Positions 16,384 through 18,256 of a stretch of 64,000 nucleotides of DNA are shown piece after piece (position 1 is the stretch's first letter; the number at the start of each line of letters is the position of its first letter). This DNA is from an uncultured Gammaproteobacteria bacterium (GTDB taxonomy: Bacteria; Pseudomonadota; Gammaproteobacteria; Arenicellales; JAANXG01), in the NCBI GenBank assembly GCA_947258975.1, contig CAMYKK010000015.1, positions 1 through 64,000 of the forward strand, written 5' to 3'. A program made the translations under genes and the position numbers. A model generated the notes under the pieces. The model saw only the letters and a program-made list of their open reading frames with translations, was not told the origin of the DNA and searched no databases.

Positions 16384-17193
16384 TCACATGACCGGCAGCG
16401 GAATCTTGGCTTCTAAGTAGTCCTTCGGCGGTCGCAAGGTGTCTGCGTCCACCGCTTCGAAGCTCGTTTCCCGCAAAGTTACCGAGCTTTGCGTTTGCAG
16501 GTCTTTTATCTTGACCGGAATACCGCGCGTGTTGCCCCCGCTTTGCGTGATCGTCGGCGTCTTGAACCCAAAACTAGACAGACCCTGGTTGGTGAGGCGC
16601 TCGGTGACACCCAGCATGGCCTGAAACGTCTCGTAATCCGACCGCGGAATCTTCAGTCCTGCGGGATCGGTGATACACAATTGCTGGACTTTCTTTCCGT
16701 TCTCCATGACATCGACCCGGCGGCAAGAGAATCCGTCGATTTTCATTTGTCCATAAGGCATGTAAGTCCTGGCGGGCACTGGTTGCGACGCGCCGCTCAT
16801 CATCGGTGCCATCATCGGCATCATCATACGGCCCTGCTGGACCATGCCGCGGTATTGCGGGGGAATGTCTTCCATTTTTTTTTGCATCTGACCTTCCATG
16901 CGTTTCATCGCCGCTTTGGTCCGTTGTGTGGCTTCCGCCATCCAAGCCTCACTCATGACCGTGTATTGCCGATGCTGGTGGTTGATGAAGGTGAATGAGG
17001 AGTCGGACCGGTTGAATACGGCAACCAAACGCTCGGTATCCGCCTGTTCGCTGATGCCGATCAGATTCTCCTTGATCACCAGTTTAGTGTTTGTGGGGGG
17101 CGTGTCTGGACGTTGGTCTTCAAAGACCAATGCCGTGTCGGCAAGAACGGGGGACGCGAGCAATGCCGTGCTTAGTAACAGGTATCGAATCAT
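16384..17193 (-). CDS. Exported Met-rich DUF4412-like protein
   Basis: The 269-residue protein has a signal peptide (about 1-18, ending LASPVLADT). The ATG at 17193 follows an AGGGAAAC ribosome site; the longer frame upstream is not used. The middle holds a Met-rich low-complexity segment (GRMMMPMMAPMMSG), preceded by a charged KAAMKRMEGQMQKKMEDIPPQ-type helix. The layout, with residues on stored values and 'FTFINHQHRQYTVM', recalls DUF4412 proteins of unknown function. Two cysteines (FSCRRVD, QLCITD) could pair in the periplasm. It is divergent from another Met-rich exported protein across a 225-base AT-rich spacer. Metal or envelope-stress roles are possible, but none is shown. Confidence 0.72.
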   Translation of the reverse strand: MIRYLLLSTALLASPVLADTALVFEDQRPDTPPTNTKLVIKENLIGISEQADTERLVAVFNRSDSSFTFINHQHRQYTVMSEAWMAEATQRTKAAMKRMEGQMQKKMEDIPPQYRGMVQQGRMMMPMMAPMMSGASQPVPARTYMPYGQMKIDGFSCRRVDVMENGKKVQQLCITDPAGLKIPRSDYETFQAMLGVTERLTNQGLSSFGFKTPTITQSGGNTRGIPVKIKDLQTQSSVTLRETSFEAVDADTLRPPKDYLEAKIPLPVM

Positions 17194-17355
17194 GTTTGTT
17201 TCCCTATCAATCATTATCATGAATCGTAATCCGCGACGGGACCAAAGGATTGTCGTGAGTGCTGCCGTGCGCTCAAATCTGGTCAGGTCAGTCGCGAACA
17301 CGATGTGTATATCCTCACCATCAAGGGAATATCTCGAAAGGAAGGATTGAATCGG

Positions 17356-17369
17356 ATGTAATATTACAT
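17356..17369. promoter_or_regulatory. Palindromic operator candidate
   Basis: ATGTAATATTACAT is a perfect 14-bp palindrome in the AT-rich spacer between two divergent Met-rich exported genes, 49 bases before the plus-strand start. Position and symmetry suggest binding by a dimeric regulator controlling one or both genes; no regulator gene is adjacent. Confidence 0.4.
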
Positions 17370-17418
17370 TAGTATATGAAAATATTCAAAAGTACTTAAC
17401 AACTAGGGATGTAACATT

Positions 17419-18105
17419 ATGAAAACACTACAGAAAAGTACCATATCGGTTCTCGTGACGTTCCTGTCTCTGGCTCTATTGGCGCTCACACCGGCGCGGG
17501 CCGAGACAAAAAACGAGGCACAACCATCCACCGAGCACAAATTCGAGTTGGCCAAAAAATATCATGGCGAGTGCAAGAACGTCAGCGAGGCGGATTTCGA
17601 GGCCATTCGACCCTATCTCAAGGCGTTCACCGATGCTGAGGTAATGGCCGACATGATGGCCAATCCCATCGAGTTCAGCAAACTCATGCAGGTCGTCAAT
17701 GACCCGCGCACTATGCATGTAATGATGAAGTGTTCCACTGAGCCGGTGATGTGGGATACGTGGATGCGCGGTCTCACCGACCCGACCAAGCTCATGAGCG
17801 CGGCGACACGTTTTATGAACCCCATGATGTACTTCAACTGGGCGATGGCGCCAATGAATCCGCAGATGTACGCCCCGATGTTCGCGATGATGAATCCACA
17901 GTACTACGCCAACTGGATGAATGCGGGAATGAATCCGGCTTTCTATCAACCGATGTTCGCGTTCATGGATCCGAATTGGTACAACCCACGGCTGCAGTGG
18001 ATGATGAATCCAAACTCGTTTCAGCCCATTTCTAATCTGTTTGGCTCCGCCGTGCCGCAGGGCAGCCCGGCGACCGGTGAACAGTCAGCCGAACAGCCGA
18101 AGTAA
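17419..18105 (+). CDS. Exported repeat protein with ~13-residue [N/D/E]P periodicity, Met/Asn/Pro/aromatic-rich
   Basis: I do not recognise a family. The 228-residue protein has a signal peptide ending near ARAET (about residue 29). From residue 82 to 198 a dipeptide NP, DP or EP recurs with prolines at 83, 96, 109, 122, 135, 148, 160, 173, 185 and 198, a spacing of 13 or 12 throughout. The later repeats read MNPxxYxNWM and MNPxxYxPMFAF alternately, so the region is also a 25-residue double repeat rich in Met, Tyr, Phe and Trp. Cysteines are at 52 and 105. A regular structural or solenoid-like protein, a sulfur-globule-like coat protein, or a copper-binding Met-rich protein are all conceivable. 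A strong terminator follows, so it is probably monocistronic. Confidence 0.85.
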   Translation: MKTLQKSTISVLVTFLSLALLALTPARAETKNEAQPSTEHKFELAKKYHGECKNVSEADFEAIRPYLKAFTDAEVMADMMANPIEFSKLMQVVNDPRTMHVMMKCSTEPVMWDTWMRGLTDPTKLMSAATRFMNPMMYFNWAMAPMNPQMYAPMFAMMNPQYYANWMNAGMNPAFYQPMFAFMDPNWYNPRLQWMMNPNSFQPISNLFGSAVPQGSPATGEQSAEQPK

Positions 18106-18142
18106 CGCCACAATAATTTAGGCAGTACACGGCTTTTGTCGC

Positions 18143-18178
18143 AAACCCCTTTGCCGGTCTCCGGCCAAGGGGTTTTTG
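18143..18178 (+). terminator. Rho-independent terminator
   Basis: AAACCCCTT...AAGGGGTTTTT forms a stem whose inner arms (GCCGG/CCGGC) extend the pairing, followed by a T-run. It lies 38 bases after the repeat-protein stop and isolates that gene from relA. Confidence 0.85.
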
Positions 18179-18256
18179 CGTCATAGGGAGGTCGGATGGC
18201 GTTGAGTTTTCTGCATTGCGCCCGCATTTTATAGTTTAGCCTTGGCGTTGAGTACG

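Follow-up and report, generated by a model that had tools for sequence, protein, structure and literature searches.

Exported proteins of proline-capped helical repeats in uncultured Gammaproteobacteria and their possible association with sulfur globules

Gene structure and genomic setting

The gene studied here lies in a 64,000-nucleotide stretch of DNA from an uncultured gammaproteobacterium, which is referred to below as the window. Its product and the homologues of that product are called family A, and the features of the locus are collected in Table 1. A preliminary description made from the letters of the window gave the open reading frame, its frame and its coordinates correctly. The precursor begins with a charged n-region followed by a hydrophobic core and an ARA cleavage motif (ARA/E), and the full-length family A homologues have signal-like starts as well. 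As judged by these N-termini, family A is exported to the periplasm by means of a cleavable signal peptide, a feature expected of sulfur globule proteins (Sgps).

Table 1. Features of the family A locus, in window coordinates
Feature	Position	Strand	Basis
Family A gene, exported [N/D/E]P helical-repeat protein, 228-aa precursor	17419..18105	+	ORF, 27-sequence alignment, AF2 model
Sec-type signal peptide, residues 1-28 (MKTLQKSTISVLVTFLSLALLALTPARA/E)	17419..17502	+	Judged by sequence
N-terminal helical cap, residues 38-72 (TEHKFELAKKYHGECK..IRPYLKAFTD)	17530..17634	+	Alignment, column counts, model helices H15-22 and H29-43
Array of ten 12-13-residue NP/DP/EP units, residues 82-208	17662..18042	+	Alignment, AF2 model, spacing
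Met/aromatic-rich part of the array with alternating double unit of about 25 residues, residues 134-184	17818..17970	+	Sequence, G283/G143 comparison
Rho-independent terminator hairpin with T run	18140..18180	+	-28.9 kcal/mol, z = -6.1
Upstream region: two blocks conserved in close relatives (17330-17349, 17381-17399) and a non-conserved palindrome (17356-17369)	17330..17399	+	
Divergent neighbor, exported DUF4412-like protein; also beside family A in G001, G007 and the distant G063	16384..17193	-	

The terminator that the preliminary description had assigned to the gene is real; it was missed by a simple consensus scan and detected by its folding energy. The upstream palindrome noted at the same time is present (ATGTAATATTACAT), but five close homologues do not share it, and its interpretation as a conserved operator was rejected for this reason. 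Two other upstream blocks, TATCTCGAAAGGAnGGnTTG and ATATTCAAAAG, are conserved in six close relatives and may represent a regulatory element.

The neighbors of the family A gene in the window are pst/phoU, CDGSH, DUF4412-like, spoT-like and egtB-like genes, all named by eye from their sequence with the exception of DUF4412. Among these, only the DUF4412-like gene recurs beside family A in a distant genome, where the adjoining homologue (G063, L062 3851-4678) is 22% identical (E 2e-22), and the DUF4412-like protein may be functionally linked to family A. Links of family A to the pst/phoU or spoT-like genes were rejected, since these are not its neighbors in most other carriers. The DUF4412-like protein encoded in the window is Met-rich.

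Repeat array and conservation

Ten prolines of the window protein (residues 83, 96, 109, 122, 135, 148, 160, 173, 185 and 198) are each preceded by Asn, Asp or Glu and follow one another at spacings of 13, 13, 13, 13, 13, 12, 13, 12 and 13 residues. The prolines and their 12/13 spacing had been read correctly in the preliminary description, but the numbers it gave as residues of the mature protein are those of the precursor. The longest chain of [NDE]P motifs at this spacing is ten in the window protein, compared to a maximum of four, reached 18 times, in 200,000 shufflings of the mature residues. Methionine makes up 12.5% of the window protein overall and 20% of residues 131-205, a segment that also contains 15% Asn, 15% Pro and 23% Phe/Trp/Tyr. 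The last six repeats had been said to alternate between MNPxxYxNWM and MNPxxYxPMFAF; this alternation is clear in four units (residues 134-184), while the last two are degenerate. A single complete double unit of 26 residues that is present in the G143 homologue is absent from its sister in G283, and the double unit therefore appears to be an evolutionary module.

Family A occurs in 20 of the 100 nearest genomes, with partial sequences in two of them (G090 and G097), and in 8 of the 369 genomes of a class-wide sample, the window's own genome being counted in each case; in that genome it is a single-copy gene. The named close relatives that carry it are metagenome-assembled genomes (MAGs) of uncultured Gammaproteobacteria, one of which was deposited as Arenicellales, and a homologue 48% identical over 219 residues was found in G552, a member of another class of the same phylum. 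In the alignment of 27 sequences the units keep the same spacing, with the exception of a small number of one-residue insertions and of two members that are short or truncated, so the 13-residue spacing, whose conservation had been proposed as a check, is retained almost exactly. P83, P96, C105, W112, P135 and W141 are invariant in this alignment, and Cys52 is kept in 23 of the 27 sequences. The Met columns vary to Leu, Ile, Val, Ala, Thr or Phe, and the columns that are fixed hold Pro, Trp and one Cys.

Predicted fold and relationship to known families

AlphaFold2 (AF2), supplied with the 27 family A sequences, predicted an all-helical protein with thirteen short helices (mean pLDDT 83.4, pTM 0.69). 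Ten of these are repeat helices, one per unit, each beginning at the NP, DP or EP cap (H55-65, H68-78, H81-92, H94-104, H107-114, H120-129, H132-143, H145-155, H157-168 and H170-183 in mature numbering; pLDDT mostly 83-94). In family A, hydrophobic residues occupy 78-95% of positions +3, +6, +7 and +10 counted from the proline, a pattern like that of amphipathic helices. Structure prediction was the other check that had been suggested, and the fairly confident model does predict a regular helical repeat.

No Pfam or NCBIfam family matched family A above its cut-off, a search of PDB sequences returned nothing under E 0.75, and a match to the NCBIfam FPM13 metalloprotein (E 0.018, 15 vs 210 bits) was rejected as chance level. 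Comparison of the model with PDB structures by Foldseek gave a best E of 3.1, which is not a match, and none of the 64 chains compared by VIA reached a Z of 2. Short helical repeats are hard to match, and the lack of a structural counterpart is no proof that the fold is new. No description of family A was found in the papers searched. The preliminary description knew of no named family with this repeat, and the libraries searched likewise yielded no confident match to a characterized one; its idea of a new solenoid gains strong circumstantial support. Family A is, as modeled, a conserved and folded family of NP-capped helical repeats that has no named counterpart in the libraries searched.

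Association with a second repeat family

Family B comprises exported MNPxxY-repeat proteins with a unit of about 9-10 residues, also unnamed in Pfam and NCBIfam. In eight genomes (G003, G006, G008, G011, G012, G113, G186 and G309) the genes for A and B either adjoin or lie no more than roughly 3 kb apart. Three genes of type B were counted in the window's genome, at C3, C83 and C29; the one at C29 (L109 6239-6793, +) encodes a third exported MNP-repeat protein of this genome. Both families are present in 18 of the relatives (A in 20, B in 21; p 8e-15) and in 6 genomes class-wide (A in 8, B in 7; p 6e-11), and they co-occur when only the dsrA-positive relatives are considered (p 1e-9) and when the count is made by genus (p 4e-6). 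Shared ancestry inflates all of these values, the genus-level one included. Since joint presence and joint absence both occur within several taxonomic families, the link between A and B is likely to be real.

Family B resembles family A in its export, NP-Y/W motifs, Met richness and occurrence in the same genomes, often as a neighbor. It differs in its shorter unit, its low complexity, its low-confidence AF2 prediction (pLDDT 50, too low to use) and the lack of a conserved Cys in the aligned set. A local profile match between the two families (hhalign E 4e-8 over 31 columns) may be due to composition alone. Two other exported proteins were observed near these genes. In G006, a Gly/Met/Pro/Phe-rich protein (GFGMGGFNPMG; L047 10057-10983, +) of sulfur-globule-protein-like composition is encoded between the A and B genes. 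In G113, the gene between the family B genes and soxYZ (L055 11598-12590, -) encodes a protein with 88 Met, in which a haem-like CxxCH motif precedes dozens of repeats of the MNPMMMAP type.

Sulfur oxidation genes in family A genomes

A dsrA gene of the sulfur oxidation type was found in 27 of the 28 distinct genomes with family A; the exception, G192, is 90% complete and gave no dsrA match. Among the 100 relatives, dsrA was over the cut-off in 20/20 genomes with family A vs 36/80 without it (Fisher p 2e-6), and in the class-wide sample it was present in 7 of the 8 family A genomes, against a base rate of 112/369 (about 30%). G552, from the other class, has dsrA alongside family A, and SoxY was over the cut-off in 19 of the 20 family A genomes among the relatives. 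Most dsrA-positive genomes lack family A, which indicates that family A is not required for reverse-Dsr sulfur oxidation.

SoxA, SoxB, SoxY, SoxZ, DsrE2 and DsrA are encoded in the window's genome, and a search for SoxC, conducted in this genome only, returned no match. A truncated Sox system combined with reverse Dsr is the arrangement in bacteria that store sulfur globules as intermediates, and this gene set (soxABYZ, dsrE2 and dsrA without soxC) is that expected of sulfur globule formers. Besides this dsrA, the window's genome carries a second one of diverged sequence, which is separated by about 23 kb from a gene of family B (G000:C3:214320-215468 and 238240-238923), and the same second type was seen in G001, G002, G004, G006 and G011.

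In other genomes the repeat genes themselves lie near sulfur genes. The A-B pair of G011 is beside FccB (FCSD_central 1.3e-46) and a cytochrome c, and SoxY, SoxZ and a TsuA/YeeE-like gene are found near the family A and B genes of G113. Family B genes are located in or near sox clusters in G032, where one lies beside SoxYZA, and in G018, G063, G076 and G091.

A proposed role in sulfur globules

On balance, we lean towards family A being a periplasmic sulfur-globule-associated protein, part of a coat or envelope or a scaffold, which would bind zero-valent sulfur with its Met/aromatic faces. This proposal draws on the export signal, the repeat spacing, the predicted helices, the co-occurrence with dsrA, the adjacency of MNP-repeat genes and the proximity of A or B to sox and fcc genes. 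A structural coat of the sulfur globule kind was one candidate in the preliminary description, and the dsrA association, the sox/fcc context and the family B link provide it with strong circumstantial support. The setting of the window gene counts against a role in globules, as it sits among pst/phoU, CDGSH, spoT-like and egtB-like genes and not among sulfur genes. The many dsrA-positive genomes that lack family A, the carrier G192 with no dsrA match and the contrast between the folded model and the described Sgps count against it as well.

Each 12-13-residue unit would open with an Asn/Asp/Glu-Pro helix cap and form one short amphipathic helix, and the Met, Trp, Tyr and Phe side chains would supply both the core and a hydrophobic face, rich in thioether and aromatic groups, of a secreted alpha-solenoid. 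Family A and the co-occurring MNPxxY-repeat proteins could then coat or nucleate zero-valent sulfur in the periplasm, where truncated Sox and the oxidation of sulfide would generate it before the reverse Dsr pathway uses it up. The invariant Cys105 may form a structural disulfide with Cys52 or may serve as an attachment to polysulfane. In this scheme it is sulfur binding, location in the envelope and any role of Cys105 that we infer.

In Allochromatium vinosum, stored sulfur is oxidized by reverse Dsr, and described globule proteins have a cleavable signal and regularly spaced prolines and are without known domains (PMC10386293; PMC7356093). Likened by description to SgpA, SgpB, SgpC and SgpD of A. 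vinosum and to ALG67575.1 of Beggiatoa leptomitoformis, family A has in common with them a cleavable signal, regular prolines, hydrophobic repeats and no recognized domain. The sgpD gene forms a single-gene unit and has a terminator to itself (PMC10386293; PMC7356093), as does the family A gene. Family A differs from the Sgps in its fixed 12-13-residue unit, its invariant Trp, Pro and Cys residues and its confident predicted helical fold; the described Sgps are low-complexity or poorly predicted, whereas family A is strongly constrained and predicted to be folded. SgpD is also reported to be almost restricted to the Chromatiaceae. Because family A was compared with SgpA-D by their described features, we do not file it as an Sgp member, though by analogy it probably works like one.

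Alternative functions for family A were also considered. It could act in periplasmic sulfur oxidation as an accessory rather than a coat, as a soluble scaffold or a carrier of sulfane sulfur via Cys105 that docks, for example, SoxYZ, FccAB or polysulfide. Cys105, unlike Cys52, is fixed in 27/27 sequences, genes of family A or of its partner B are found near fccAB and soxYZ, and a protein modeled as well folded would fit a binding function better than a coat. However, in most members Cys105 and Cys52 could simply be joined in a structural disulfide, family A has no SoxY-like GGCGG arm, its repeats and its abundance of hydrophobic Met and aromatic residues are reminiscent of structural proteins, and B, its close partner, consists of low-complexity repeats. 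We consider this accessory role unlikely.

The DP domains of STI1 and ubiquilins are also Met-rich and composed of short helices with N/DP spacing. This likeness raises the idea of a periplasmic chaperone or STI1-like protein with a hydrophobic groove for unfolded proteins or lipids, for which the link to sulfur would reflect only a shared habitat. Weak matches to Pfam STI1-HOP_DP (PF17830; E 0.1 or better) were obtained for 7 of 21 family A members, the best at E 0.0013, and the domain shares with family A N/D-P-capped short amphipathic helices and Met richness. The window protein scored 18.0 bits against a gathering cut-off of 29.1, and membership in this domain family was rejected on that score. 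In addition, the STI1/HOP domain is a co-chaperone domain of about 55 residues, while the exported bacterial proteins of family A carry ten units that strictly keep a spacing of 12-13. The absence of a fold match by Foldseek and VIA, which carries limited weight for short helical repeats, and the persistence of the family B association among dsrA-positive relatives also argue against a chaperone, and we regard this function as less probable again. A methionine-based copper or silver sink, another early candidate, would fit an exported protein of such high Met content but is highly improbable and was rejected, as Met in its columns is freely swapped for other residues where conserved Met/His ligand positions would be looked for, Met lies on the hydrophobic stripe of each helix, and no copper genes were recognized among the family A neighbors read.

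A more specific and quite tentative possibility, to which we give only a low chance, is that family A represents a new and truly folded class of globule coat. In this class an NP-capped alpha-solenoid would present a Met/aromatic surface to zero-valent sulfur and be anchored to polysulfane chains through its invariant Cys, acting together with the low-complexity MNP-repeat proteins in uncultured reverse-Dsr sulfur oxidizers. Known globule proteins are few, mostly from Chromatiaceae and with low-confidence structure predictions, and the periplasmic packaging of elemental sulfur is poorly understood. As a conserved family predicted to fold and tied to reverse-Dsr genomes, family A would provide a marker of sulfur storage in uncultured lineages, a tractable subject for work on structure and sulfur binding, and a new architecture among helical repeats. 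In G552, an exported protein with many DP-capped helical units and STI1/ubiquilin-like sequence (G552:C2, L113 8312-9340, +) is encoded near DsrE2- and YeeE/YedE-like ORFs, and may belong to a wider class of sulfur-linked DP repeats.
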